Made by a program: the position numbers and the translations under genes
Assembly: GCA_025765595.1 (NCBI GenBank)
Contig: JAIVFH010000030.1
Span: forward strand, 1-64,000
Direction of reading: 5' to 3'
DNA: 64,000 bases
From: Obelidium mucronatum
Lineage: Eukaryota; Chytridiomycota; Chytridiomycetes; Chytridiales; Chytriomycetaceae
Notes under the pieces: generated by a model
The model's input: the letters and a program-made list of their open reading frames with translations, nothing else
Database searches by the model: none
What the model was told of the DNA's origin: nothing
Part shown: positions 5,060-38,657 of the stretch, in pieces
Layout: every line of letters begins with the position of its first letter
Position numbering within the stretch: the first letter of the stretch is position 1

Positions 5060-6206
5060 ACACAACTAAAAAAAAGTCTCAAAAAACAGCCAAATGCCCC
5101 CAATAACGCCAAAAAGAAACAACGGAAGCGGGCATTGCACCAAGCTGCGCTGCTCCATGAGCGTGAGTCCCATGATATCATCCTATGATTCTCAATGTTA
5201 ACTCTGCCTCAGCGTGCTGTGAATGCTGCCGCCGTAGCACATGAACAACTCTATGACGAAAACACGGCCATTTCGAAGAAGGCAAGGGTTGAAGACTCAC
5301 CGGTAATGGAAATGGAGCTTGATGAAGGTAACTATAGTTTCATTCCTTGTTTTGCTTGAGAGCACGCCTAAAGCTGCAGTTATCACGACAGATAATGGTA
5401 CTTATAACGATGATGTGTCATTGGCATCAGCAGGTATCTCCTATTTTTAGTGATTCCCGTTCTTATTGCTGATTTCTGTTCTGTTCTATCCTACTGTCTC
5501 AGCTGCAACAATCATGTTCAAGACAAAACTGCTTTTAGCTCCAGTTGCCGTATTTCTGATTTCCAACCCGAGCAACTCCGTTTTTCAAGCTCAAGCCTCT
5601 CTCCAAACTGATAGGATTGCAATCCACCTTGCTACGATTTGAAAGCTCGGACATTGTCTTCACAGCGACTCGATTGTCAGGATGTTACGCTGCCAACATT
5701 GATGGAATCTGTGCATACCTTCAGTCACACCCCAAGCTTCTTGCCCAGTCGCTTCTTTTCCCTGAGAATAGGTCCAATGGAGTACAAGTCCAACTTGCAA
5801 TTATTGCGCTTACAACATTTCTGATGAAAGTAAAAGCTCGGTTACTGAAAATCACCCTGAAGCAGCGACCACATCTGGAATCCATACTGAACAAGTGCCG
5901 GTCCAAGCAGTGAACTCATTACCAGCAGAAAACAGTGGCTGGATTGACGTTGAAGATGTCCCCAAGAACTCTTGTTCTGAACAACGCGAATCTACCAGCA
6001 AGTCTCTTATGAAATCTGCAACCTCCAATCTTGAAAGTGCAAATCAACGAAGCAGAAACCTTGCAAACACGGTCTCCAAGCTCCGTTCGGAACTTTTATA
6101 TCTCAAATCCATCCTTGGACCCACGCAACGGCGTCACTTGCAAACTATTCACGAGCTAATCAAGAGTGATGGACACACTTTAACACGAACAGCAATGGTT
6201 TATTGA
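5060..6206 (+). pseudogene. Degenerate ORF of unknown function inside the TIR element
   Basis: Several coding-like pieces lie in one direction. A basic Lys/Arg/Gln-rich stretch sits at about 5060-5180. After it come an acidic Glu/Met-rich piece ending near 5327 at a possible GT donor, a middle piece at 5617-5913, and a C-terminal piece at 5895-6206 that is Ser/Asn-rich and probably forms a short coiled coil (L-A-N-T-V-S-K-L-R-S-E-L-L-Y-L-K). The pieces are in different frames and some have stops, so either introns were missed or the gene is decayed. I recognise no family. The basic N-terminus would fit a DNA-binding accessory protein, but that is conjecture. Confidence 0.35.
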
Positions 6207-6928
6207 TTGGTCGAGATTTGAGGATCAGGAGAACATTTAACTTGATTACGGGGCTGTGTCATTTAGTTTTTCCTCCCCTTACTCTTTTTTTTTTGTGTGG
6301 GGGTGGCATCAGTTGTGCTTGTATTCACCGTGTTGATGGAAATAATAAAGAGTTGCGGACAAGCTTTTCACACCAACACACAAACTCTCTATAACGATTT
6401 CGACTTGAATAAATTGTTTTACTATCCATGATTGGTTACACGCGTGGCGCCCCAGAATTGGAATTCGGTGGCCACGTTTGTTGCGTCAGCGATGCAGTAA
6501 TCAATATTTATATGGCTGAATAGTTTGTTTATTAAAGTCATTTATGGTTTTCAAACATCACTTAAAAAGGATTGGTCAGAAGTGGGGATCGAACACCGGG
6601 TTCCAAACGGCTGGAGCAGATTGATGCGGATGACCTAGACGTCCCTAACTCGCTAGACAGATATTTATATTTATACAGCTTTAACAATCATTTCTCTATT
6701 TCATCACCAGCTAGCAAGGATGTGTTCCAATCATCTTTTTTGATATTTGCGATAGTTTATTTATCGGTTTTAGAGCGTGCAGCCCCGGTGACAGTGACTT
6801 TGGGTGTGTTGCCAACTTTTTGTGTGGATCACCACCCCCCTGGATTTTTGGTTGGGTTTGAAGGTTGACTCAATATGAAAAGACAGTGGATTCCAAAGCG
6901 TTCAAGTTGTAAAAACAATTTTCTTTCC

Positions 6929-20530: not shown

Positions 20531-22785
20531 ATGGGCGCCTCCGTCTTCCACCATGACCACCCGAAGCGGACGCTTTTCATAATCGCCGTTTTCCTAGTCA
20601 CTTCCGCCAGATTCTCCTCTGTCGTTCCACGGCCAAAACTATGGACGTCAACCCCCATTGAAACCTTCAACAGCGAAACATCATCGAGTCCCTTGAAAAA
20701 TACCTACATTGCTGAAGTGGAAACACTGGTAGTAAATGAGAACCTCGTCTATCAGCATGGATCCGAGAGTTTGTTTTACTCTCAGTGGGCTTCGTCGAAT
20801 GGATTCGTTACATTCAACAAAAACGTGTTTTTGGAAGATGGACAGCAAATCACTGGGAATCCCCCGTTTTCCTCCACAGAACCTCGCTTTATGCATGGTG
20901 TGGCAAGTGGCGATGCCCTTTCCGATCGAGTAATGTAATCCGTCGCTCTTGCATTGCTTATTGGTGGTTTTGGTTGTTTGGATTCTGAAACGAACGCCGG
21001 TTTTTTTTTACACAGTGTTTGGACAAAAGTCACTCCGCCGCCTGATACTCCTTCATTCTATGTTCGATATGATGTCTCATTATCCGCTGAGGATCCAGAC
21101 ATATCGCTTCCAGGATCTCCTCTAACGCGACTGGGGCCCTCCATATTCTCTGGAACAGTCATGACTGGCCCTGAAGTTGATTACACTGTCAAAATCGACC
21201 TACTTGGTCTCGACCCGAAAACCGTCTACTACTTTCAGTTTTCAGTCCCGTCAAACATTGCAGACTACAATGCGGGAAAACCACACAGCCTAGTATTCAG
21301 TCCTGCAGGTCGAACACAAACTCTACCTGCGCAAGATGATGCGTCAATTTCATCTGTTCAATTCGCTGTGGTTTCGTGCTCCAACTGGCCGCGAGGCTTT
21401 TTCAATGTTTATTCTTCTATTGCTGCTAGACCCGAGATTGATGTTGTTCTGCATTTGGGGGATTATATTTACGAATACCGGAATGGAGAGTATGGGGATG
21501 GTGCATCGATTGGGCGTATTCCTCTTCCAGACAAGGAGCTATTGACTTTGGAAGATTATAGGTTTGTTAACGTGTCTTTAATTTCCGGAGGATTCTGCTA
21601 AATTGAGAGTTCGCAGGGGCCGCCATGCACAATATAAAGAAGATGAAGATCTGCAAGCTTTGCATCGCTTGAAACCATGGATCGTCATTTGGGAGTGAGT
21701 ACTTCATAGAAAAGAAATACTCTGTACTTATCAACCAACCACTTCACAACAATAAAAAAAAATAGCGATCACGAATTCGTTGACGATATTTCTGGATTCG
21801 CATCATCATTCCACCAACACTCAAACGAAACAATGTCTCGAATCCCTGCCGCCATGCGTGCCTACTTTGAATACCTACCGATCAGAGCTCAAAAAACATT
21901 CACCTACACACCCACACATTTATCGGTCCAGAAAACCAGCAATCAAGAGGACAATCAAAACCTTCTCCTTCTTTCAAAAACAGAGCGCCATGTCCAACAA
22001 CAACAGGAGCGGTCGGGGATCTACCGAAACTTCCACTTTGGTACTTTGCTGGATTTAATGATGCTCGACACACGGATCCATGGTCGGGATAAAAGTGATT
22101 GGTCGACACTTCAAGACGAAGGACGAACAATCTTGGGGGATGATCAAGAACAGTGGCTTGTTGATCAATTACAAGGTTCCATGGATCGTGGAGCTTCTTG
22201 GCGGATTATTGGGAATCAAGTTGTTTTTGCTCAAATGGATTACTGGGGGTTGATGTTTAATGGGGATGCGTGGGACGGTTATCCTGCAAGCCGAAAACGG
22301 ATTCTGGAAGCCATTGAAGAGAGGAAGTTGAAGGATATTGTGGTCTTGACTGGAGAGTGAGTAGTCTTTTGATTGATTTTTTTTGGGTGAAACTGTTTCT
22401 AAGACGGTTCTATAGTGTTCATTCCTCATTCTCATTCAACGTCCCAAAGTCCTTGGATTCGTATAATCCCAAAACTGGGGAAGGATCCTTACTCGTCGAA
22501 TTTGTGGCGCCAGCTGTTACAAGTCCATCGCCACTCGAGTCAATCCATGTTGGATTCTTGAACCCATTGGCAGAAATGCTATTCCCCCGAATTGAACCTC
22601 ATTTGCATTTTATGGATTTATCGCGAAGGGGATACATGATTTTGAAAGTCGGAGTAGAAAGAACTGTGTGTGAATATTGGTACACAAAGAATGTGCGAGT
22701 ACGTAATTCCGGGGAATCGCTTGGTGCGATTGTTGAAACGGAGAAAAATAGTGGAAGGATAACACGCGTTACGACCATGCCCTGA
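20531..22785 (+). CDS. PhoD-type alkaline phosphatase
   Basis: A secreted or membrane-anchored metallophosphoesterase that removes phosphate from phosphodiesters and monoesters. Five exons fit exactly in frame: 20,531-20,934, 21,016-21,561, 21,617-21,694, 21,766-22,356 and 22,416-22,785, giving about 662 residues. A hydrophobic N-terminal segment (R-T-L-F-I-I-A-V-F-L-V) is followed by the PhoD N-terminal domain (H-G-V-A-S-G-D-A, then V-W-T-K-V-T-P). The catalytic domain shows the family signatures V-S-C-S-N-W, H-L-G-D-Y-I-Y-E-Y, Y-R-G-R-H-A-Q-Y, W-D-D-H-E-F-V-D-D, L-D-T-R, G-N-Q-V-V-F-A-Q-M and L-T-G-D-V-H-S-S. All metal-binding Asp/His positions I can identify are present, so it should be active. 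Length and architecture are usual for fungal and bacterial PhoD proteins. Confidence 0.93.
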
Positions 22786-22927
22786 GTATATTGGCAAAAG
22801 TCTTTTCTCTTTTTAAAGAGATACACCTCTTTTATTGTGCAATAAGTTAAATATATATAAATGAATATTAAAAGTCAGAGAGACGAATAACTTCTAGAAA
22901 GTCTGAAAAACTGAAGCTAAAAATATG

Positions 22928-23330
22928 ACTATTCGCTTCGCATCAATGTCGATTCCCGTCGTTTATTACTCTTGTAGTATGCATCAGTATTCTTATTACT
23001 TTCTGGTGGAATAGCGATGATCATTGTCAACCGTCCACTTCCTATACCGACGACAGCCTCCTAAAGAAAAAGTTGATGCCCTTCTATACAATCAGCGATT
23101 TTATCCTGGACAAAAAGTTAAAGCTCAATTCGCGTATGAAAGGAATTTATCTGATGAATTGAATGTCATGTGTGGTGATGAAATCTTGATCAAAATGATA
23201 TTCGACGACAATTGGTGTCTAGGGACGTAATACATCGACAAACGAGGAAGGAACGTTTCCAATGCTTTGTCTTCACACCACTCTTGAAATTGAAAAACTC
23301 AAAAAGCGAATGTCAAGTAAACTCGTGACA
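22928..23330 (+). pseudogene. SH3-domain gene remnant
   Basis: The region 23,070-23,270 encodes a recognisable SH3 domain: A-Q-F-A-Y-E-R-N-L-S-D-E-L-N-V-M-C-G-D-E, then F-D-D-N-W-C-L-G. The frame then shifts by one base at 23,221-23,224 and continues G-R-N-T-S-T-N-E-E-G-T-F-P-M-L-C, the expected SH3 C-terminus. Upstream, a hydrophobic stretch (V-F-L-L-L-S-G-G-I-A-M-I-I-V) followed by proline residues is in another frame with stops. A membrane protein with a cytoplasmic SH3 domain (as in fungal Sho1/Fus1-type proteins) has probably decayed here. Confidence 0.6.
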
Positions 23331-23365
23331 ATAGCGTAAAAACATATTCTCAGTGGTTGTTGAAT

Positions 23366-24735
23366 TTATTTGCCGTTATGAGATTCGATTAAAATATCCT
23401 GTGCTTTCCTGATGGCATTCCTGTAAAAAATCATAGTTTATAAGTAAATTGGTGTAAAATATATGAGATTAATGACTCACCGGCTGGAGATGCCACTAAC
23501 AGACGGGTCCACACGTGCGGGCTTTACAGAACTTGGTAATGAAGATGAAATATTGCCTGTTGCTAGAAACAGCTCCTACAAACTCGGCAAAAGTCTCTGT
23601 TTGAGAAACAGGAGCCTTTTCAACATTGGAGGCGCCTGAATTTGCAGAAGCTATAGGAATCCGTGATGATCTCGAAGTAATAGATGAGGAAGAATGAGGC
23701 GGAGGCGATGGAGATGACGTATTTCTGCCACCATCGTCGCCAAACACAACGTTGGATTTGTTGTAGAGTCCGTTAAATCGAGACTTATACAGCGGAATAG
23801 AAGACGGTTTGTTAATGCACAGAGAAGGACCGCCATCGTCACCAAACACAATGGAAGTCTTGTTTCCCGAGGCCGATCCAGGCCTTTTTTGAGGTCGACT
23901 CGCCTCAGAAACATTCGAAGATGATAACGAAGGTGAACCAAATTGAATATTGCTTTTGTGTTTGTAGTGCATCGCCATTGCAGACGCTGGTCGAATTTGA
24001 GTTTCAGGAGTTGTTGGAGGGTTGATGATATTGTGCGTTGCAAAAACGTTCCGTCGACCTGCGGCAGGAATATCTGAATCCTTTACAGAATTGTTATTTC
24101 CAGCTCGTTTGGGTTGTTCGCTTGATTGCTGGGCTGATTCCAGTGCAATTTCAGAAACAGTGTAGACCAATTTGAAGGATGATTTTAGATTTGGCGACAC
24201 TCCAACAGGATGCCGCCGCCCAGGAGCAATTGCATCAGCGGCTGATCCAAAGACAGGAGCACTTTCCCTGCGCGGTCCAGGCCGGCGGCCAGGTCTGGTG
24301 AACAGCTGGTTGTCGCCGCCAGACGCCACCCCAGCCGAGCCTTGCCGCGACGCAGGCCCCGCACTGCTTTCAGTGTTTTCAAAGATGCCTACGAGACAAG
24401 AGCGCAGAGAAGAGAGAAGAAAGAGAAGGTGAGTCATCCACGCAGCCGCAGCCAACCAACGCACCACTCAGGCTTCCCTGCCTTGGCGTCCGCGCAAAGC
24501 GCGTTGGCGTCGCACAGCTGCTGGTTGACGTTGACGTTGAGATCGACGTTGACGTTGACGTTAGGCGCCAGGCGGCCGCCGACACGTCGTCGCCAAACAC
24601 AACGTTCGACTGCGACGCGCGCTGGCTCGTCTGGCTCTCCAGCGAGCCGCGTGTGCTCCGCGTGCTCCAGCGACAGCGTCGAGAATGCCGCCGGGCGGCC
24701 GGCGGCTGGGCGGCGGCGGGGAAGAAGTCATTTCG
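23366..24735 (-). CDS. Ser/Pro/Arg-rich protein with repeated S-N-V-V-F-G-D-D motifs
   Basis: The 3' exons are clear. An exon runs from 24,387 to about 23,553 and ends in A-E-F. A ~55-nt intron leads to P-A-R-V-D-P-S-V-S-G-I-S-S-R, another intron (GTGAG...ACAG) to N-A-I-R-K-A-Q-D-I-L-I-E, and the stop is at 23,366. Upstream, a GC-rich exon at 24,600-24,473 joins by a GTGCG...GTAG intron. The start lies near 24,735 (M-T-S-S-P-P-P-P-S-R-R-P-P-G-G), but the frame between that ATG and the exon is unresolved. The motif S-N-V-V-F-G-D-D or T-S-I-V-F-G-D-D occurs three times and a weaker K-S-N-I-Q-F-G once, spaced through low-complexity sequence. Short R-P-P-G-G and F-G motifs recall Jupiter/HN1-type microtubule-associated proteins, but that is a weak guess. 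Confidence 0.55.
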
Positions 24736-24771
24736 GAAAATAATAATAAAATAAAATCAGAGACGAAAGAA

Positions 24772-26202
24772 ATGAAGCTTCTTGCGTTTTTGCTTCTTCT
24801 CGTCTGCGCCACGCTGGCGCTCGCCTGGGAAAAGGAAGACTTTGCGATCTTTGACTTGGTGGGTTTTGCTTTTGTTTGATTGTTTGGCTGGCGTTGGTTG
24901 GATCGAGTTACTAGATGGACAGAGACCGACAGTCGGCCATACACCCACATGAGTCACAATAGCTCGTCTAATATTCAAATAACAGCACGATAAACTCGTA
25001 AAGATCAAGGGCGAAAAGGACGGAAAGCGCATTGATTTCTACAAAGTACTTGACATCAGTCGTACTGCCACCCCCATCCAACTGTCCCGAGCCTACAGAA
25101 AGCAATCTCTTGAACTGCATCCAGACAAGAACCCTGCCCCTGAAGCTGCCCAACTGTAGGCAATCTTAATACCTAGATTTTTTTTCACAACCAACTCACC
25201 GCTGGCATTTATTTCTTAAAACTTCCTTAGGTATGCTCTCCTCACGTCCATCCACGGTGTTCTTAAGGATAAGGAAATGCGCGAGAGATATGATGCTCAC
25301 TTGAAGAAGGGAATTCCAACTTGGAGGGGAACTGGATACTTCCTTGCCAGGTAAAAGCTCAACTCCGAAACTGCAATGACTACTCTACCCCTTGTTCTTT
25401 AAGTAGTAATCCTAATAATATATGTACTCAAATCAAACACACAAAAAAAAGATACAAGCCAGGTCTTCCATTCATCTTGACATTTGTCGTATTGGCCATC
25501 AGTGTGTCGCAGTACCTCATTCAATACACCCAATACTACTTGGCAAAGAAGAAGACTGAAACAGAAGTCGTGGAAGTTGTTGAAGAAAAGACGTCCAACG
25601 ATCTCACCTACAACAACCTTCGTCGCATGCTCAAGAAGGCTGGCCACGCTGAACCACCCGCAGCTGTCAAAACTGCCATCCGCAAAGGTGTTGCTGTTGC
25701 CGAAATCTTGAAAATGCCCGAGCTCGCTGGCCTCATTACTGAACAGGATCAAAAGGAAGAGTTCCGCGCTGAAGCCACGGACTCGTTGAGCAAGTTGGAT
25801 GCGCTGAAGCCAAGCTTCAACAAGACTTTGATTGTGCAGTTGCCTGAAGCTATTTTGGGTCTTCCAGCGTGGTTGTCCAAGAAGAGTGCCAAAAAGTCTG
25901 AGTCTGCGCGCGAAGTTGCCGCTGAAGAAGAGGGTGATGATGTCGAGGAAGAAGTTGCCGAAGAAGCTCCTACATCCAAGAAGGCAGCCAAGAAAGCCGC
26001 CAAGCAACAGGAACAGCAGCAGCAACAACAACAGCAAGCTGGTGCGGAAGATCAGGAAGGAGGCTTCGAAGTTGTGGAAAAGAAGAAGAAAAAGAAGAGC
26101 GTCAACAAGAATGTACTCAAGTCCAGCACAGGAGTAGTGATGACCAAGGCCGAGTTTTTGAAGATGAAGCAACAAGAATTGGCCAAGGCCAAGTCAGAGT
26201 AA
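24772..26202 (+). CDS. ER membrane J-protein (Erj5/DNAJC1-like)
   Basis: An Hsp70 co-chaperone of the endoplasmic reticulum. Exons 24,772-24,858, 24,986-25,155, 25,231-25,350 and 25,452-26,202 join in frame to about 375 residues. A signal peptide (M-K-L-L-A-F-L-L-L-L-V-C-A-T-L-A-L-A) is followed by a J domain (F-Y-K-V-L-D-I-S, Y-R-K-Q-S-L-E-L-H-P-D-K-N) with the HPD motif intact. Next come G-I-P-T-W-R-G-T-G-Y-F, typical of the Erj5 group, and one membrane segment (P-F-I-L-T-F-V-V-L-A-I-S-V). The long C-terminal tail is acidic then Lys-rich with a Gln tract (Q-E-Q-Q-Q-Q-Q-Q-Q-Q), and should lie on the cytosolic side. The start is fixed by the signal peptide. The gene is divergent from the 23.4-24.7 kb gene, with only ~40 bp between the proposed starts. 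Confidence 0.88.
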
Positions 26203-26298
26203 AGATATCTATCTGAAAGAACATTGGAATCGTGATTGATGGGTGGGGTTTGGTTTCTTGGTATGAAATCAGTGATGAATAAACGATTTGATTCAATA

Positions 26299-28075
26299 AT
26301 GCACATCCTTCCAATCCTATCTTGTTGTTTGATTCCTCTCGTCTTTGCAACGGACACTGAACTCTCTGGATACCCATCTTATTCATCTGTATTGAAGCAG
26401 CTGCAAGATATTGCCCTCAGCAACCCTACGCTGGCAACATACGAATCGATTGGCAACACTCGAAGCGGCCTCGAGATTCCGTCTCTTGCGATCCACTTCA
26501 GAGCCCACCTCGAATCCGCCGCTGTAGACCTCAGGCCATATGTGCTTCTCGTGGCGCAGGTGCAGCCACGGGAAGTCCTGTCGTTAGTTACAATCTTGGA
26601 AGTTGTTGAGAATCTGGTTCGGGTTTCGAAAGAGCCAACAGCGGCCGTTGCCAAGGAAGATAAGCGTGTTTTGGACGCGGTGAAATCTTCAAGGATTGTT
26701 GTTGTTCCGATGGTGAATCCGGAGGGCTACGAAGAGCTGCGCCTCAAATACCCCCAATGTATAAAAGTTGCAGTATTGTGCTGGTTCCCGTTCTAATAAT
26801 TCGCATTTCTTAAACTTAGTTAAAGAAGAAGTAATGAAGAATGGGGCTCCAGGCTGTGCTGGTGGAGATATATCTACAAATGGCGTCAACTTGGGGCACA
26901 ACTGGGACTTTGAGGTATTCTTGCCAAACACCAGTCCGAATCCTTTCCGAAAAGAATGTTACGCTTATTCTAGTTCCTAATTTGCTTTCCCCCCTCTTCG
27001 TTTAGTGGAACTATCCCGTAATATCACAAGAAGACTTTTCAGACCCATGTAGCCCCGCATATCGAGGCTCCGAGCCCTTTTCCGAACCAGAAACCCGCGC
27101 GCTGCGAGACTTGATTCTAAAACACACACCCAAATCTGTCCTGATTCTCCACTCCCGCCATACATCCCAAGAATCTCGACTGATTGTCCCCTTCATGTTC
27201 CACAAATCCACGTTCCTCAAATCTGAATCTACACCCAAAAATGCCAAACTCAAGCTGCTTTCTGATAAAGACATTGATACGTATTCTTTGATAACGGATT
27301 CCATGCAATCCTTGGTTGACGGCGAATCTAAAGATTCGGCGTATTCGGTGGGAACCTCATGGGAAACTATTGGCAAGACCATCTCTGGTTCAGATTTGGA
27401 TTGGATCTTTGACAATACGGGAGCATTTTCTCTGGTTTTGCAAATTGGGACGAGTAAGGACGAGTCTTACTGGCCTTCTCAAAAAGATGTCCCCAAACTT
27501 ATCAAGAAGGTAAAAAAAAAGAAATATTTTTTGCAAATTTGGTGATACTTAAAAACGTTTGCGAAACTAAGCATGTGAATCCAATCATGGAATTCATCCA
27601 CCAATCCGCCACACTACCCATAAAGACAACCTCAAAGACAGCAAACAGCGCCTTACTGAAACATTTTTCTTGGATCCCCTTGTACTTGGGTGTCGCGCTC
27701 TTCATCGTGATTTCCAGTGTCCTCGGCACGTCTTGGTGTTTGGGGTACGATAAAGTATGGGCCCGATTCAAGACTTGGGCCAAACGAGTGGAGAGACAGC
27801 TTCATAATCGCAGAAAGCAGTATATTGGGTTGAGGAGGGCCAATGGCGCGGGCTCTTCGTCTCCAGCAAACAGGAATCAGGATGTTGGGTTGTTACCGAC
27901 GCGTTCCTCAAATGCGAATGCGAATGCAGCAGCCGGTAGTAGTGCTGATGGAGGGATTGGTAGTAGCTCAAGTCGCGTTAGTATTTCGACGGATGATGAG
28001 TTGGAGTTGATGGAGGATTTGGTGCATGATGAGGACGATGATGACGAGGGCGTAGGGTTTTCCTATCGTGCGTAA
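26299..28075 (+). CDS. M14 metallocarboxypeptidase-like membrane protein, probably inactive
   Basis: Exons 26,299-26,758, 26,820-26,914, 27,006-27,509 and 27,572-28,075 give about 520 residues in frame. The ATG at 26,299 opens a signal peptide (M-H-I-L-P-I-L-S-C-C-L-I-P-L-V-F-A); an upstream in-frame ATG at 26,236 is less likely. The fold is that of zinc carboxypeptidases: Y-P-S-Y-S-S-V, then Q-P-R-E-V where active enzymes have H-x-x-E, V-V-P-M-V-N-P-E-G-Y, N-L-G-H-N-W-D where N-R-N-W is usual, I-L-H-S-R-H with the third ligand His kept, and L-V-L-Q-I-G where the catalytic Glu is expected. A membrane segment (Y-L-G-V-A-L-F-I-V-I-S-S-V-L-G) and an acidic cytoplasmic tail follow. Loss of the first His, the Arg and the Glu argues for a non-enzymatic role, perhaps peptide binding. 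Confidence 0.82.
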
Positions 28076-28216
28076 AATCCAAAAAACAAAAAAGCAATCA
28101 TCCTTCCTTTTTTTGCATAAAATGTCAGTTTGTGTCATTTTTGAGGCGCAAAAGGTTTTATGGGGCTGGTGTAGCTAAAAATAAGAATTTGGTTCAACAA
28201 AAGCATTGAAAAAAAC

Positions 28217-28645
28217 ATGACAGAAAACAAAATCTCGGATACAATGCAATCCAACGCAGTTACAAGAGACAATTCGTTTCCTTCTCCTGGAGCAGCAGAT
28301 GGGACTTCTCCGATCAAGGTTCCATCACCTCCTCCTCCATCTTCCTCAGACAAACGCCAAGCTGCATTCTGCAACAACGGCAATCGGCGTTTCGAGAGTG
28401 CCATTCAGATTCCAAGACATACTTTTTCTAGTTCCTTAATTCAGCTCAGCTCTCAGACATCGCTTGCGTTGTTTGATCAAGATTTCGAAGCTGTGGATTG
28501 TGGAATCTTTAAAAACAGACGATCCAGCTTGACTTCTTGCCCGATCCAGTTGGATAATTCTCTCAAGCAGAATAATGCGCAAAACAATGTATTCAGCTCT
28601 GTGCAAACATTGAATGATCTGGAACTCGAAGGGGTCAAGACCTGA
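28217..28645 (+). CDS. Small Ser/Asn-rich hypothetical protein
   Basis: A single open frame of 142 codons starting at the first ATG after the preceding gene, 140 bp downstream. It is rich in Ser, Asn, Pro and Gln, with a proline run (P-S-P-P-P-P-S-S-S) and no membrane segment. No family is recognised. It converges on the carrier gene. It could be a real short gene or chance; codon use looks similar to its neighbours. Confidence 0.45.
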   Translation: MTENKISDTMQSNAVTRDNSFPSPGAADGTSPIKVPSPPPPSSSDKRQAAFCNNGNRRFESAIQIPRHTFSSSLIQLSSQTSLALFDQDFEAVDCGIFKNRRSSLTSCPIQLDNSLKQNNAQNNVFSSVQTLNDLELEGVKT

Positions 28646-28898
28646 TGAAGGCGGCTCCCCCCAAAAGTTCTCAACTATTTATACAAAAAAAATTCCAAAC
28701 ACTTCTGTAAACCCTTAATTCTAACCCGATATATATATTTTCAGTGTGCGATACGTTTTTATCTTTTTTGTTCCTTCAACGCAGTTTCCAAGTTCCAAAA
28801 TAAAATAAGAGTAGTACAGTGAGTTCTCACGATAGATATATACGGCATGCTTTGCTAATAGACTAAGAAAGAAGAGAATGATGAATGATACACTTAAA

Positions 28899-30093
28899 CT
28901 AAACAGGATCGAAATTCGAAACCCCCCTCACCTCATACACCACAAACGTTAGTACTGAGCCAGGCAACACACGAATCAGATTCGGTCCGATTCCTTTATA
29001 AAATCCCCATAACCCCTCGCCCTTGTAAACAATACGAATAGTTCCAAGAGTCGTCTTATAAACGCCCGCCGCATCACCCCTCTGGTTCTGAATCCGCGCT
29101 CTCACCACCTGATACGGATACGTTATCGTCATTGCAAACAATTTGGCAACCGTAGCCATCCCCATATAATCCAGTGTCCCCAACCGATTCAAATCCCCTC
29201 CGCCAACACGAGCTGTCCTCCATTTTTTAAGTTCCTCATAAGCAACAAACTGGAACGACTTCTGAGAAACACCAAACAGCGCAGGAACGAGTCCGCGATA
29301 GAGCCCTCGGATCCCTTCGTTCCTATACATTGATGACATTCCTTCTCGAAACGTTTGGTATGCTCCTGGATCCACTTTCCGGTCTGAACACATGCGGATT
29401 TTCATGATCCAGAGAGGGTTTGTTACGAAACAGGTGAGGACCCCGGTTATTGTGGATGCAATGAGGTGGTGGGTTGGAGTGAGTCGGGATGCTGTTTTTA
29501 TGGGTTTCCCGTCTGGTGTGAATGATTGAACGACAGGTGTTGCGCTATGGTTGTCAACGTATATTTGCATTTGGTTCTTGATGGAGTCATAGCTTTAAAA
29601 AAGTAGAAGGGTCTCAGGTTCCCTTTTTGTTTGAGAAAGGGCCAAAACTCACCATGAAAAGTAGAAGCCCCATGCAGCAGTAGCTCTGAATTACAAAGAA
29701 GAAATGAAAGAATGCCTTTAAGAATCTTATTTTCGATGAAAACACCACTGCTGTCTGTGAGGGAGAGAAAACTTACCCCAGGAAGTTTGCTGTCAGTCCT
29801 CGGTACAAGCCTCTGAATCCATCCTCAGCCTTGATTGTTCTGAGAGCCCTTAGAGTTCCTCGAAAGATCCCTCCTTTGTCTTTATCATTGACTGTATCCG
29901 ATTTGTAATATTTGCAAGTGTCAGTTCCAACACACATGATCGCAACCTCTCTCTAAACACACACACCCTGAAACCGGATCTTGACAACATCAAGCGGATG
30001 AAGCAAGATTGTTGTAACTGCTCCAGCTGATAGACCAGCAACAGCTTGGTGGAGTGCTGTTGAGTTGTAAAACCGTTTCCGAGTTTGTTCCAT
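28899..30093 (-). CDS. FLX1: Mitochondrial carrier, FAD/folate type (Flx1/SLC25A32-like)
   Basis: An inner mitochondrial membrane transporter with three tandem repeats. Exons 30,093-29,967, 29,891-29,777, 29,685-29,653 and 29,592-28,899 join in frame to 322 residues, the normal carrier length. The three signature motifs are H-P-L-D-V-V-K-I-R-F, T-N-P-L-W-I-M-K-I-R-M and T-Y-P-Y-Q-V-V-R-A-R-I, with matching G-L-Y-R-G-L-T, G-L-Y-R-G-L-V-P and G-F-Y-K-G-I-G-P-N repeats. The P-L-W motif in repeat two and Y-P-Y-Q-V-V-R-A-R in repeat three are characteristic of the yeast Flx1 / human SLC25A32 subgroup that moves FAD or folate. Substrate is inferred from subgroup only. The start is the only in-frame ATG before the first repeat. 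Confidence 0.92.
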
Positions 30094-30599: not shown

Positions 30600-31196
30600 G
30601 TAACACCAGCGCTTTAGGCCAGTTTCGCAGCCAATGCTCAACGCGTATGGAAATTACACTCACCAGTCACCACTGATACATTTCTTAGAATCCCGCTTTA
30701 GCTCCAAGTGCTAGTTTCCCAGAAGCCAGTTCCATCGACAGCACCGGTTGCCGCTTTTGCCGTGACGGAGATGGTAGACATTGGCAATGCTTCCAGTGTG
30801 TCCAACTTTATGTCCACTGCCGATGCAATTGAACAGCTTGCCAGCATACGACGGTGGCAACTGAATCTGCTGAAGTTTTTGACATTGACTCGGCAGATTT
30901 GGATTCCAAACTGCTGCCAATGGTGTTGACTAATCCCACACTGCTTCAATGAGGAAGGCGGCTCTGCTTACTTCACCATACTCGAGCGACTTGCTGAGTA
31001 CAGAGAAGTTCCAGAGATCAACGGCGTCGCAGTAGACAAGTGCACGGCATATCTATCCTTGGCGATAGAGGCCTGTGTTGACCATCTTGGCAACCAAGCT
31101 TGCGTTTGCTGTCAGGAGTGGGCATCCGATTCCGATCCAGTTGCCCTTGCTGCGGAGTTGAAATCGGCGCTTGAATCATCAAGGCCGCTGGCATAG
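30600..31196 (+). pseudogene. Broken paralogue of the gene at 33.0-34.3 kb
   Basis: Bases 30,530-30,720 match 32,990-33,190 in arrangement: a GGATACAGAA motif, an exon ending CTCAACGC|GTATGG, and an intron ending at AATCCCGCTT. Coding remnants then align with the intact copy: S-A-E-V-F-D-I-D-S-A-D-L-D against A-A-E-I-F-G-V-D-S-T-E-L-H, and C-V-C-C-Q-E-W against C-V-G-C-Q-G-D-W. A stop at about 30,950 (after T-L-L-Q), frame changes, and loss of the central coiled-coil segment mark it as a pseudogene. Confidence 0.6.
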
Positions 31197-32992: not shown

Positions 32993-34260
32993 ATGGATAC
33001 AGAAGAGGTATTTAAAATAGTTGAACTGTGTTATTGAGCTCGATCTTCCATAACATTATTGGATAAACAGCTTATCAAGCCCTTACACGTGCAAGTTGCC
33101 GCTGCTCAACCCGTATGGAATCTAAATGAGGACTTATATGTTTATTCCACTCACCAGCTTGAATATTTCTAGGATTCCGCTTCGCAGCAGTATTCGGGCA
33201 GTTGCAGGCCCTGCCACCCCCGTCACGAAGACCCCCGTTAAGAAGCCCTTGGTTCATCAACCACTGACTTCGAAGCCAAAAACCAGCGGCTCGACGCTCA
33301 ACCGGTATGGAAGCTTGGATGAAAAGTCATCTATATAAGCGCAATTTCCAACAACTTATCCCCGGTTTTGTTAGGATTCCCCTCCGGAGCAGTATTCGCG
33401 TCGCCGCCGCAGCCACCGCCGCCAAGCCGCAGCACTCTGCGCCAGCGCCACTGAAAGTCAAGAAATTGGCTTTCAACCAACCCATTCATGCGACATCTAA
33501 GTCGGATGAATGTCGCGCGCGTCTTGAGCGCCGCGTCGAGGTGCTGGAGGCACTATTGGCCGAGTCTGACGCAAAGGTTGCGCAGCTCGCTGAGGACAAC
33601 CACTTGCTGCGTGAATGCAGCGAGAAGGGGTTGAACCTCCTCCATGGCTGCAGAAGCCGTTTCCAGCGCCAAATGGCGCACGGCGCGAGGGTTTGGGACG
33701 TCCTCGTCATCAGCGAAGCGCAGGCGGCATCTGCGGCCGAGCAGTCAATGGCCATGCTGGGCCTTGTGGAGAAGGCGGTGGGCGTCGCAGTGTGCGAGCT
33801 GGCGAAAGAAGGAGTGACTAAATCCTCCTTCACCACCGCATGTCCATCGAGGGTGGTCGAGAAGCTGGTGGCGCGTGCGAGCGTTGCTGCGGAAATATTT
33901 GGCGTTGACTCGACGGAGTTACATGTCCAAATTTCACCGCTACTGGTGGACTTGATGCCGTGGTGTGGCATCACTGACTGCTCTTTTCAGGGTGTCCCCG
34001 TACTCCAGCAACTGGAGGACTGTAGAGCGGCGCAGCACAAGACCTGTGCTGTCATTGAGAGGTGTATTGCCCTCTTCAACAAGACAGAGGAAGCGTACAC
34101 CGAACACTTCGGCAGGGGGGCCAAGTGGGAAAGTGAACCCTGCGTTGGCTGTCAGGGAGATTGGAGAAGAGCTCCTATGATGGCTGCCGCTAGTTCTGAG
34201 CCAGTCGTCGCTCTTGCTGCCGAGCCAAACGGTGCTACTGGCGTGAAAGTGCCGATGTAA
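32993..34260 (+). CDS. Unknown coiled-coil protein with a C-x2-C-Q motif (orphan family)
   Basis: The main exon runs from about 33,375 to 34,260, preceded by an exon at 33,174-33,304 that joins through a GTATGG...TTAG intron. Both exons open with the same sequence I-P-L-R-S-S-I-R, so an exon was duplicated. One or more small 5' exons (from about 32,993) are likely but their phase is uncertain. The protein is Ala-rich with a leucine heptad coiled coil (E-R-R-V-E-V-L-E-A-L-L-A-E and A-Q-L-A-E-D-N-H-L-L-R-E), then a helical region and near the end C-V-G-C-Q-G-D-W. Base composition is noticeably more GC-rich than the surroundings. I do not recognise the family; a decayed paralogue lies at 30.6-31.2 kb. 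Confidence 0.6.
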
Positions 34261-34961
34261 AAATGTAACTTAACACCATCCAAGTATTTGAAATTGGTTG
34301 CTGACTTAAAAACAACTGACTAGCGGACTTGCCAGTAAAAAAACTTTAAAAAAAAACCAAAAAAAAGACGGGGATTGTAAGTATAATTGCCGCATATTCA
34401 CTCATATTAACAAGAAACTCAACAGGTTATTTTCTTCCGAGTGCTCCTATAGAGCCTTGGTTTGGTTGAAGGTGACTAGTGATGATAAATGTGCCAAAGA
34501 TCGTCTATTAATGTTTGGCACTTTTCTTTTAGGAATACCGCGGCCTGTTTCTTTTTTTGTTGCACTCAACCTGGGTTGGGTGCTTTTTTTTCGCAGGTAT
34601 CTATTGATGTCAATTGCACCATCATTCCAACTGTTCAAAACTAACAGCAAACTTGACAGCTTAGTATTTTGGTTGAGGAAAAGCCGGCTGGACAATACTA
34701 CATATGGAGTTGGCCAAAGATCGCTTCAAGAGGTTCATTGAAGGCAACGTACAGCATCAGTTGAATAATACACGTTGTCTGTTGGACTCTGGTAGTGATT
34801 TTCAGTATTCGAGCTTGTGGTCTAGTTGGCGTATAATTGTGCAAACGCAACGCTGAGTGAGCAGTAATTCACGAACAATATGAAGAAATCAACCGCCAGC
34901 GCAATAGACCAAAGACCGAGTAGTAATTTGAAGAAAAAGGCCACTATGTTTGAAGCGTGAT

Positions 34962-35000
34962 TGGTCGTTAGTTGGCAGGGACGCCTACAACTATCGATCA
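34962..35000. repeat. Constant-loop hairpin 1
   Basis: Arms TGGTCGTTAGTTG and CAACTATCGATCA pair over 13 positions with one G-T wobble and one T-T mismatch. The loop is GCAGGGACGCCTA. Confidence 0.7.
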
Positions 35001-35135
35001 TGAACTCCACCATCTCAACCAAAGCATAGCCACACAAATACCTGACTGAATCATAATATCACATACAACAGCTGACTGATTTCTTATGTTATTGCGGCAA
35101 GACTTTTTTTAATAGGTACAGTGAGTGTGGCAAGC

Positions 35136-35136
<1 letters not shown>

Positions 35137-35176
<40 letters not shown>
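35137..35176. repeat. Poly-T run of 40
   Basis: Uninterrupted homopolymer (assembly length may be unreliable) between hairpins 1 and 2. It could be the A-tail of an old retroposed sequence on the minus strand, but no body was recognised. Confidence 0.9.
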
Positions 35177-35525
35177 CGTATTTATTCGTATCAGACCAGA
35201 ACTTTGCTCCTCATCAAACTTGCGTCCTGACTCCTGTCCAGAAACACAATAGACTTGTTAAACAAATACCGAAAGCAGCTCCAGTATCATTTGACAGTAT
35301 GACAGTAAAAACCAACCATAAATAGTGAATCAAGACGACCAAGAGTATAAATGTACGGCAGAAAACGAAGCAGCAAGACCGGAAAAGAGGGAATATTCTT
35401 CAACTATCAATTAATTATCTTCAATTGTATCTATTGTGCCTGACTGGACTCGAAGTTGGTGTGGGAAGCAATGCCAAAAAAAACCGATCGACCTTATAAT
35501 TAGAAGGTTAACTGTTCTGGGGGAA

Positions 35526-35555
35526 TGATCGTTGTTGGGACGCCTTCAACGATCA
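35526..35555. repeat. Constant-loop hairpin 2
   Basis: Perfect 9-bp stem TGATCGTTG / CAACGATCA. Loop TTGGGACGCCTT. Confidence 0.75.
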
Positions 35556-35787
35556 ATTATTTTTGTACTGGACTCGAATTTGAAACATTGACTGGAAAGC
35601 ATGAATGAATTGTTTGAACTGAAAATAAGTCCGCCACAGTTTGCCCGAAAAGACTTTCCCATTAGTTGCAATATTCCTTCAAGAAAAATCACCAAGTTAG
35701 AACTGCTGTATGATCCATAAATAGTCCAACGAATACGTTTTAATTCCCTGATCCATTTGATTTTTCAAGTCCCTGTTGCTGTGTCAA

Positions 35788-35818
35788 TGATTAGTTGTTG
35801 GGACGCCTTCAACTATCA
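35788..35818. repeat. Constant-loop hairpin 3
   Basis: Stem TGATTAGTTG / CAACTATCA with one bulged T. Loop TTGGGACGCCTT. Confidence 0.7.
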
Positions 35819-36251
35819 AAATAATTTTATCTGGCTTGTCATGGTTGTTAGCAAGCGAATTCGAGTGATCCAAAGCGTTTTAGAAAGTGAAATCAGTTCG
35901 GTTGATATTCCTATTGCTCCCATCAGTCTTATTCCCTCTTAACAAAAATTGTCCAAGCCCTTATAAATGGTTATACTGATCCAAAAAACATGCCAGAAGT
36001 ATAATTCCCTTCGAAATCATGAACCACACTCGTACTACAACTTGACTTGAAATTTGAAAATATTTAATACGCAGCTTAACTGATTGGGGGAATACAAAGT
36101 CGAGAAAATATGAAAGTTGAAATTTGCCAGTGACGAATCATTCACACAAACAAGGGACTCAAGTCCCCTATACACGATGCAATTTAAAGCCCTTTCTTAT
36201 CTTATACCTTCCAGAATAGTTTGTTGTCCTAGTCTAGGCAACTTGCTTGAA

Positions 36252-36289
36252 GCATGATAGTTTGTTGGGACGCCTCCAAACTATCATGC
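36252..36289. repeat. Constant-loop hairpin 4
   Basis: Perfect 13-bp stem GCATGATAGTTTG / CAAACTATCATGC. Loop TTGGGACGCCTC. Confidence 0.8.
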
Positions 36290-36716
36290 ACACTGTTTCC
36301 CAAAAAAAAGGTACCAAACAAATAATGGCCGCATTGAATTTATTTATCTCCTGCTCGAAGTCGAATACTATTATCATATTGCTGCCATCCACGATCTTGA
36401 ATCTATTTTACCCTTGCGACTATCAGGAAGCGACAGAATAAGGAGTGTTCTAAAATAACTGCCGACCCACCTTCACAAAAATTGAGAAATACTAGCCGTC
36501 ATATGTTATTACAGTTTGTATTTCCTTCTATTTTTTTTTCCTTTGATTTGATTGATTTTTTTAAAAAAAAAAAAAACCTGTCCCAATCCCATAAATTTAG
36601 AATCACAAGACTTGGACAGAATACCAAAATACCAAATATTCAAACCCAACACAATTTTGAAAATCCTATTCTTTGATTTTTCTCTTGACTCTATACAATA
36701 TGTGACATCATTGTTT

Positions 36717-36762
36717 GGATTGGTGGTGTTTTGTTTGGGACGCCTTTCAAAACCCACCATCC
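36717..36762. repeat. Constant-loop hairpin 5
   Basis: A 15-bp stem GGATTGGTGGTGTTTTG / CAAAACCCACCATCC with two bulged T. Loop TTTGGGACGCCTTT. The stem sequence is unrelated to the others except for the loop-closing TTTG/CAAA. Confidence 0.75.
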
Positions 36763-37175
36763 ATAGTTAATCCAAAACATTTATGATCCCTTATACGGCT
36801 CTAGCACTATCAGCACAACTTCTAAAAAGAAAACTTGATCGGATATAAACCAAATGAACACGAAAAAAAGATCCTTTCGACCCAACACTCAACAAAGCTG
36901 ACTTGAACGCGATAAGAAACATACATACGGACATAATGGCAATCATAAGGAAAAAAGCAACAAGTCACTCTAGGAACTCAATGGTTGTGTCTTCATAATC
37001 TCTTAAAATTTCAGCATTTAGTTTTTTTCCTATAGATTATTTATTATTTCATTTGTCGTTGAATATAGAGTTGAAGAGAATAAGAATTTGCTTTTTCGTT
37101 AAACTATACTGTACGACATTACTTTATTTGCAACTATAAGAACTCCTCTAATCCAAAAATCCATCCATCTTCCAA

Positions 37176-38657
37176 CTAATTCCTTGAAGCACAGTAAGAT
37201 ATAACAGCAGCCAAAATCTGCTTCTGCCCAATCAAGTAATCCAAAATATACCGCTCATCCGAAACCCCCGAAACAGGCTGTTGCAGCATCAACTCCTTCT
37301 TCCTCTCCAAATCGCTTTCCAACGTCGTGACATACATTCCCAACAACGTTTGCGCCATCAAATCCACCATCTCAAACACTTTTGCTTCATTTTCGTCCGA
37401 CAGCGGAGAAGTAATTCGCTGTGCAATATTGTCCTTGTTGATGGACTCCAAATCCTCTTGATTCGCAACCAAAACACGCAAAGACATGATCATTGTCTGT
37501 GGAATCCCCGCTTCTTCCGGCGTCAACGCAACAATCCCTTGAGAAGGCGGCGCAGGCCCAAACTCTTGATCTCTTCCAAGCGACAACGCCAAAACCTCCG
37601 CAGCCACCGCAAGCAACTCATCTTTCCGTTCCTTCAACCGCATCGCTTCCACATCGTCCTCTTGATTCCCATCATCAAACGTTACATTGACGGTTTCCTC
37701 TGGGTTTCCTTCAATCGCGAATCCATAGTGTGTTAGGAGGAACCAATTTGGGACCGAGCTGTCGTGGTACGCGATTGTGACTTCTTGGCCGGCTTCAATG
37801 GGTTTTTTGGATTTGATGATGAGTGATTTGGTTTCGGCGTCGACGCCCTTGACGACTAAATTGGGTATGTTGGAATGGTTTGCGAGGTCCAAGTAGGGAA
37901 CCATGAAGACCTTTGTTTTGTGTTTCGGTGAGTTGAAGGCCCCACCCATGCATGGTATCGGGTATAGTACGAAAAAAAAAAACAGAACCAGTACCTCAGA
38001 TTGTTCATCAGACTTTTCTAATCGAAACGTGAATGCACGACTCGCAATCGCAGCATGCGCCCACATCAGCTCCGCCCATAACCGATTCTGCAAAACCTCA
38101 TCATCAACATCCTCCGAATCCTTCAACAGAACTCCCGGAAACAGTTTCACCAGCGGCATCAGCACATGCACCAGAACCAATTCCATCTGCGATCGCTCAT
38201 TCTCCATGACAGCTTCCACCAGTGTTCCCTTCAACCGATCCAGCGCGCGTGGATTTGAAATCTCGAGACACAGCAGATTAGAGAAGGCGCGTGGGACCGT
38301 GTCAATGTACGGCGAGTACGGCGTCGCGTCGGGACACGCCTTTGCGTGCATGAGCAGCAGCGCCAGCGCCAGGTGGTCGTCCCAGTGGTCCATCAGCGGC
38401 GGCGGCGCTTCAGACAATTCTTTTGCGTGTTTGTTTTCGCTGTGCTGATTTGTCATCGCGCGCGCGAGCAGCGGCCGCAGCGTCGCCTGGTTCGTCGCCG
38501 CCGACGCCGACAGCAGCTTCGGCGCCGCGACCGACAGCACCAATTTGTCAGCGGCGATCGGCGCCGCCGCCCACAGCGTGCGGCCAGAGGCGTCGTGGCG
38601 GGCTGCGAGCGGCGGCGCTTGGCCGAGCCAGGCAAGCAGCGTGTCGACGGGGTCCAT
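37176..38657 (-). CDS. SET-domain lysine methyltransferase (Rubisco-LSMT/RKM type)
   Basis: A protein lysine methyltransferase of the SETD3/RKM/LSMT group. Exon 1 is 38,657-37,995 and exon 2 is 37,910-37,176, about 465 residues. The 84-nt intron has no stop and is a multiple of three, so retention would add 28 residues. The split SET domain shows V-P-Y-L-D-L-A-N-H-S-N (the cofactor-binding N-H motif) and V-T-I-A-Y-H-D-S-S-V-P-N-W-F-L-L-T-H-Y-G-F, the usual end of the domain. The C-terminal ~150 residues form the helical substrate-binding half seen in this group. The N-terminus has a long Ala-rich GC-rich stretch. Targets in yeast relatives are ribosomal proteins or elongation factors; here the substrate is unknown. 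Confidence 0.88.
   Translation of the reverse strand: MDPVDTLLAWLGQAPPLAARHDASGRTLWAAAPIAADKLVLSVAAPKLLSASAATNQATLRPLLARAMTNQHSENKHAKELSEAPPPLMDHWDDHLALALLLMHAKACPDATPYSPYIDTVPRAFSNLLCLEISNPRALDRLKGTLVEAVMENERSQMELVLVHVLMPLVKLFPGVLLKDSEDVDDEVLQNRLWAELMWAHAAIASRAFTFRLEKSDEQSEVLVLFFFFVLYPIPCMGGAFNSPKHKTKVFMVPYLDLANHSNIPNLVVKGVDAETKSLIIKSKKPIEAGQEVTIAYHDSSVPNWFLLTHYGFAIEGNPEETVNVTFDDGNQEDDVEAMRLKERKDELLAVAAEVLALSLGRDQEFGPAPPSQGIVALTPEEAGIPQTMIMSLRVLVANQEDLESINKDNIAQRITSPLSDENEAKVFEMVDLMAQTLLGMYVTTLESDLERKKELMLQQPVSGVSDERYILDYLIGQKQILAAVISYCASRN

Follow-up and report, generated by a model that had tools for sequence, protein, structure and literature searches.

Five hairpins with an invariant tip behind a fast-evolving coiled-coil gene: candidate RNA elements in the chytrid Obelidium mucronatum

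The window analyzed here, a stretch of 64,000 nucleotides at the beginning of contig C30 (JAIVFH010000030.1) in the 48.3 Mb genome of the chytrid fungus Obelidium mucronatum, contains a gene for a fast-evolving coiled-coil protein, whose main coding exon is preceded by small 5′ exons, and, behind this gene, an array of five hairpins built around the sequence GGGACGCCT (Table 1). A convergent gene for a SET/Rubisco-LSMT-type protein, with a product 91% identical to an O. mucronatum entry, would mark the downstream limit of the array’s transcription unit. The coiled-coil protein matches no Pfam family above cut-off, a protein search found no homologs outside its own genome, and its AlphaFold model, obtained from a two-sequence input, has a mean pLDDT of 46.

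Table 1. Features of the coiled-coil gene and the hairpin array in the window; z compares the predicted RNA fold with shuffled sequences.
Feature	Position	Strand	Core	z	Remarks
Main coding exon, coiled-coil protein	33307..34260	+			317 aa from this ATG
Putative intron 1	34377..34425	+			GTAAGTA...TTAACA...CAG; from the four-sequence alignment
Putative intron 2	34472..34532	+			AAG|GT...AG|GAA; 61 nt in both window alleles, 56 nt in both paralogous haplotypes
Further conserved hairpin	34562..34583 (to 34592 with T run)	+		-3.04	GCACTCAACCTGGGTTGGGTGC, then T run; not of the GGGACGCC type
Hairpin 1	34962..35000	+	34978-34986	-3.97	AGGGACGCCT; one T.T mismatch, absent from the other allele
Hairpin 2	35526..35555	+	35537-35545	-3.47	9 bp, TGATCGTTG/CAACGATCA
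Hairpin 3	35788..35818	+	35800-35808	-2.22	9 bp, one T bulged; weakest
Hairpin 4	36252..36289	+	36267-36275	-6.57	13 bp, GCATGATAGTTTG/CAAACTATCATGC; strongest
Hairpin 5	36716..36763	+	36737-36745	-4.13	GGTGG.GTTTTG/CAAAACCCACC, one bulge
SET/Rubisco-LSMT-type protein	37176..38657	-			convergent neighbor

GGGACGCCT occurs exactly five times in the window, always on the + strand and always in one of the hairpins between 34962 and 36763; dinucleotide shuffles of the window contain 0.27 copies on average, and five copies were reached in 0 of 100 shuffles. The core is extended to TGGGACGCCT in four of the five hairpins and to AGGGACGCCT in hairpin 1, and TTGAAGCRTGAT is found directly upstream of hairpins 1 and 4. 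A preliminary description of the array, made from the sequence, is borne out, including the stems which it quoted and its spacing of 230–530 bp, which fits the gaps between the hairpins (the start-to-start distances of the cores are 559, 263, 467, and 470). In the predicted fold, a variable stem is followed by an internal loop of the UU/UU kind, two invariant G-C pairs and a GACG cap, giving the order stem-UU-GG-GACG-CC-UU-stem. The core is as invariant as had been described, but two G-C pairs are predicted within the supposed loop. Similarly, the claimed complementarity of the stems is present but interrupted by a bulged base in hairpins 3 and 5 and by the T.T mismatch in hairpin 1. When folded in 300-nt contexts, the window arms still pair, mostly with a probability of at least 0.8, which is partly lower in hairpin 3. 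The stretch CTTCAACTATCAA at 35398–35410 equals the 3′ arm side of hairpin 3 but has no partner arm, and is possibly the relic of a sixth hairpin.

Further arrays of this kind were found at three other places, such that 18 hairpins in total are distributed over C30 (the window, five), C3 (five), C11 (four), and C514 (four). Since C3:705000–714499 matches positions 20559–30078 of the window at 96.9%, C3 and C30 were read as the two haplotypes of a diploid, whereas C11 and C514, which are 94% alike, represent two haplotypes of one diverged paralogous locus. At the latter, the array is located on the other contig strand, again behind a gene related to the coiled-coil gene of the window. All 18 hairpins are oriented alike, in the direction of the preceding coiled-coil gene, and the distance from its stop codon to the first loop is 718, 721, 649, and 645 nt in the four arrays. 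The upstream and downstream neighbors differ, being genes for a mitochondrial carrier and the SET protein in the window and, as judged by eye, ilvD-like and Cbk1-like genes on C11; we conclude that the array belongs to the coiled-coil gene and has moved with it.

Not every relative of the gene is accompanied by hairpins. None of this type was detected on the 5′ side of the window gene, within at least 5.6 kb downstream of related coding exons on C260 and at C30:100.6–101.4 kb, or within 1.4 kb of a coding-exon fragment on C546; near the second of these exons, one core-like match without arms occurs on the other strand (C30:95000–104900, position 1446). The C260 and C30 100-kb paralogs of the window’s coding core (C260:24000–33900, positions 5724–6620 of the piece, and C30:95000–104900, positions approx. 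5650–6490 of the piece, both on the minus strand) share 82% DNA identity with it over only about 720 bp. As they are 95% alike, they look like alleles of each other; the C30 100-kb copy contains stops and the C260 copy is open.

Between the stop codon and the array, two putative introns can be recognized, whose splice signals are kept in all four sequences, while their interiors vary in sequence and length between the loci. Because of these conserved signals, we take them to be introns of a transcript from the + strand that extends into the hairpin region. They are followed by a further conserved hairpin, also present at the paralogous locus with small differences. The composition of the stems fits a + strand RNA as well, since among the 17 distinct hairpins the exceptions to regular pairing are G.U in 13 cases and A.C in five (P = 0.048, one-sided, for rows which are not independent). 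On the other hand, the duplex energy of the arms alone is better on the + strand in nine of 18 hairpins, and the stems are consequently weak evidence for the strand, weaker than the gene-like organization with its putative introns. The energy of full hairpins, better on the + strand in 18 of 18, was discarded as evidence because the identical tip contributes a constant offset. A run of 40 T is located between hairpins 1 and 2 (35137–35176). Pol III should terminate there and not transcribe the array as one unit, so that Pol II is the likelier polymerase.

The hairpins may belong either to the coiled-coil mRNA or to a separate non-coding RNA. Introns more than 50 nt past a stop codon are expected to mark an mRNA for decay. 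The position of the putative introns well past the stop codon therefore speaks for a separate RNA, whereas the fixed distance to the gene speaks for the coiled-coil mRNA.

In the genome, hairpins with the array-type arms are practically confined to the four arrays. All nine genomic copies of the exact sequence TTGGGACGCCTT are on C30, C3, C11, and C514. A pattern requiring array-like 4-nt arms on both sides, which detects such arms alone and misses three array hairpins (C11.3, C514.2, and C514.3), matched 17 places, 15 of them in arrays, and its reversed control none; the two remaining matches, on C10 and C193, are without this hairpin fold. A 20-mer search allowing up to three mismatches gave 18 matches (eight for the reversed control), of which 14 are in arrays and four lack this fold. 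Less specific was the core combined with the 3′ arm, with 22 matches, 12 in arrays, compared to 12 for the control. The bare 9-mer GGGACGCCT was found 182 times on both strands of the genome, against 101 for the reversed control, and only 16 of these copies are in arrays; it was rejected as a marker, being common and owing its excess over the control largely to dispersed repeats.

Next to these patterns, 87 of the 166 outside 9-mer sites were examined regardless of the sequence of their arms. By sequence, they group into 54 families, including three repeats with 15, 10, and 7 rows. Arms were scored with a tolerance of one bulge and compared to random positions, whose 95th percentile is reached by 17 of the 18 array hairpins but by only 15 of the 69 distinct outside sites (Mann-Whitney P = 1e-7). 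An earlier, bulge-free score exceeded this percentile in 12 of 18 array hairpins and in one of nine outside sites. The fold alone discriminates poorly, as at least six pairs around the core are formed in 18 of 18 array hairpins and also at 37 of 69 outside sites. The preliminary description had proposed a genome-wide count of arm-flanked GGGACGCCT. Such sites do exceed the random level modestly, with nine of 54 outside families at or above the 95th percentile, but the signal is local: the arrays stand out in the genome, and the bare 9-mer does not.

Several of the outside 9-mers are part of dispersed repeats. The first repeat consists of near-identical copies, with 35 genome matches at up to three mismatches, and two copies that were folded give a long hairpin whose tip, GG-GACG-CC, is that of the array (minimum free energies of -32.2 and -26.0, z approx. 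-3.3 against mononucleotide shuffles). The second, in which the 9-mer is part of TTAAGGGACGCCTTAA, has 36 matches within a repeat of at least 3 kb, two copies being 97.8% alike over 3 kb; it is possibly subtelomeric, several matches being near contig starts. A third repeat resembles the second around the core, as judged by eye. Rfam and tRNA scans of 12 outside 9-mer loci found nothing. Likewise, no Rfam match was obtained in the whole window at the gathering score or in 34260–37180 at E ≤ 5, and a tRNA scan of the window found none. Beyond this genome, the exact 20-mer had no match in public viral contigs and four in public prokaryote genomes, all of them actinobacterial; three are identical over the compared stretch and fold into a short version of the hairpin. 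These matches were taken as chance.

Since the arrays exist in two haplotypes at each locus, substitutions in the hairpins can be compared to those around them. The alignment of the two window alleles shows 150 identities, five substitutions and five gapped bases in the hairpins (5 × 32 nt), whereas the rest of 34950–36780 has 1335 identities, 197 substitutions and 138 gapped bases. Thus, 5 of 155 aligned bases are substituted in the hairpins and 197 of 1532 outside them (Fisher P = 6e-5; P = 0.012 for random placement of five blocks). The same tendency is seen between C11 and C514, with 115 identities, four substitutions and nine gapped bases in four hairpins (4 of 119 substituted) versus 931, 100, and 81 in the rest (100 of 1031; P = 0.011 for rarer substitutions in hairpins). 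When all four sequences are aligned, few islands are common to both loci, and the hairpins belong to them. Not each hairpin takes part in this: if allelic identity is measured over 40 nt at a time, window hairpin 3, at 80% versus a mean of 83%, and hairpins 2 and 3 of C11, at 62.5 and 87.5% versus a mean of 89%, are not above the mean.

The pairing itself was assessed by exchanging arms between hairpins. Cognate arms pair better than swapped ones in the window (-14.3 versus -6.8 kcal/mol, P = 0.008), in nine non-redundant hairpins, for which hairpin 3 of C514 replaced the degenerate one of C11 (-13.0 versus -8.0 kcal/mol, P = 0.00015), and in all 18 (-12.5 versus -7.9, with 0 of 20,000 permutations as good). 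Individual hairpins deviate: the cognate arm ranks 14th of 18 in C11 hairpin 3, which is degenerate in loop and stem, 16th of 18 in C11 hairpin 1, sixth in window hairpin 3, and sixth and seventh in C514 hairpins 1 and 2. In a MAFFT alignment of the hairpins, 84.3% of the cells pair versus 77.9% after shuffling, and the covariation score is 0.288 versus 0.176, a value as high being reached in 0 of 500 shuffles; related rows inflate these pairing and covariation tests. No excess was found for two-sided changes, which occur at four of nine stem pairs versus 2.8 after shuffling (116 of 500 as high), or for pair types (10 versus 10.0), and the covariation term of RNAalifold is small (-0.28). The stems had been said to change freely, which overstates their variation in view of the consensus, approx. 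TGATAGTTG/CAACTATCA, shared by the arms of the arrays. Their sequences indicate that the stems descend from a common ancestor and that the hairpins derive from one another. Nevertheless, an invariant tip on stems which change yet remain paired, as generally expected of a hairpin binding site, is found on average, C11 hairpins 1 and 3 being the exceptions. The proposed selection on single-stranded structure is supported by fewer substitutions in the hairpins of both loci, the shared islands, and the average advantage of cognate arms.

The coding exon in front of the array behaves very differently. In 500-bp steps, allelic identity is 95–99% on both sides, falls to 53–68% over the coding exon, amounts to 80–95% over 34.5–37 kb, and returns to 95–99% from 37 kb onward. 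The proteins encoded by the two alleles (window 33307–34260 and positions 2075–3049 of C3:714500–724400) are only 28% identical, or 30% for the annotated form, although the flanks are approx. 97% identical in DNA. Upstream of its own exon, at 30735–31193, the window contains a partial copy resembling the coding exon of the C3 allele (85% in DNA, 63% in protein), and the window haplotype thus carries pieces of both allele types. This pattern is suggestive of alleles that are old, balanced or exchanged. We do not claim a mosaic C-terminus for the window protein, as the local score of 44 does not surpass the shuffled maximum of 46.

Taking the observations together, we lean, if only narrowly, toward the reading that the five hairpins are + strand RNA elements in a long spliced region behind the coiled-coil gene, be it the 3′ UTR or an adjoining non-coding RNA, and that they would control this gene through a factor reading their tip. 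They probably serve as docking sites within an RNA and are less likely to be mobile DNA that was inserted here. The region would be transcribed and spliced either as a long 3′ UTR or as a non-coding RNA beginning just behind the gene. The invariant GG-GACG-CC tip together with the flanking uridines may then be recognized in trans, most likely by an RNA-binding protein, while the lower stem would merely present the tip and, needing nothing but pairing, could vary in sequence. With four to five copies per RNA, binding might be multivalent and allow a cooperative or graded control of RNA stability, translation or location.

An alternative close to this reading is that a non-coding RNA gene of its own, spliced and without a role in controlling the coiled-coil gene next to it, has the array as its body; the hairpins would then serve a scaffold or guide RNA as modules for binding. 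The two putative introns past the stop codon, and A-rich tracts between the stop codon and these introns at both loci, would agree with it. However, the position and distance of the array relative to one and the same gene family are maintained at both loci, and three pieces of the gene’s 5′ non-coding region are also conserved, at 71–76% between the window and the paralogous loci; we therefore consider this alternative unlikely, though it deserves to be taken seriously. If the hairpins were instead substrates of RNase III or Dicer-like enzymes, releasing small RNAs or setting RNA ends, stable hairpins in series on one strand would be expected, just as found. Yet it is the tip and not an arm that is conserved, stems of 9–15 bp would make short Dicer substrates, and yeast Rnt1 recognizes an AGNN cap instead of GACG, which makes processing an improbable purpose of the array.

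Other explanations operate at the level of DNA. Matching arms can arise by mutation alone, and the hairpins might be quasi-palindromes whose arms are kept complementary when template switching corrects them in replication, or sites of single-strand recombination tied to the exchange of the coding exon. The nearly strand-symmetric pairing of the arms and the sharp allelic difference of the adjoining exon would be understandable in this case. A mutational process, however, would preserve the arms, whereas the tip is most constant, and neither the related exons on C260 and at C30 100 kb nor the 5′ side of the window gene carry such hairpins, so that we regard a DNA-level origin as very improbable. 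Finally, the preliminary description had considered a hairpin-specific mobile unit, i.e., hairpins stemming from inserted, foldback-like copies, perhaps akin to the dispersed repeat with the same tip. The descent of the array hairpins from one another and the 35 matches of a repeat folding around GG-GACG-CC are compatible with this idea, and the repeat remains a lead. Beyond the core, though, the repeat has no evident sequence likeness to the hairpins of the arrays, and it was through the 9-mer that its copies were detected in the first place. Moreover, the armed pattern and the 20-mer, both searched genome-wide, revealed no dispersed array-type copies of the kind known from MITE or foldback elements, array-type arms being limited to the corresponding arrays except for the two matches without the fold. 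As all array hairpins have a single orientation and are conserved at the tip rather than at their ends, a mobile unit is, in our opinion, highly improbable.

The hairpins, read as RNA elements controlling the coiled-coil gene, have counterparts among known systems. Iron-responsive elements (IREs) have the loop CAGUGN. The transferrin-receptor (TfR1) mRNA carries five IREs in series in its 3′ UTR, and the five hairpins of the window would be analogous in arrangement and in the way they act. They are unlike IREs in that all five window loops read GGGACGCCT, that neither the window at the gathering score nor 34260–37180 at E ≤ 5 matches the Rfam covariance models of IREs, and that the gene encodes an orphan coiled-coil protein. 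In Smaug/Vts1 hairpins and mRNA zip codes, the loop is what an RNA-binding protein recognizes, and the stem carrying it may vary in sequence, as proposed here for the array; these differ from the array hairpins, which have no CNGG loop, a strict core of 9–10 nt, and an arm type confined to one gene family. The formation of hairpins from repeats is shared with foldback/MITE elements and integron attC sites, but the array hairpins are neither dispersed nor part of a cassette array, and their tip instead of their ends is conserved. The order of boxes in attC sites is also a different one. The IRE stem is characterized by an unpaired C or a UGC/C bulge (PMC4112806). A limited search of open papers found no such element for this fungus. 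We conclude that repeated RNA hairpins with a common tip would be a known kind of element, whereas this particular tip has no match in Rfam, in agreement with the earlier statement that no described element has this loop.

The contrast between a fixed array and a variable exon also permits a more far-reaching, speculative interpretation, which we think quite unlikely. A multi-allelic recognition locus, for mating or self/non-self discrimination, might have the array as its constant regulatory part: highly divergent coding exons would be exchanged there, each followed by the same spliced 3′ RNA; if the hairpins of this RNA bind one factor, any exon would be controlled equally. Recognition loci are, to our knowledge, little known in chytrids, and the contrast between coding exon and flanks marks a testable candidate for one. 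Further, we know of few descriptions of cis-acting RNA hairpins that recur with a constant tip outside animals and bacteria. Confirmation would yield a defined motif for RNA recognition in a fungus of an early-diverging lineage, for which the four arrays offer 18 natural variants to compare, and would point to a new RNA-binding protein.
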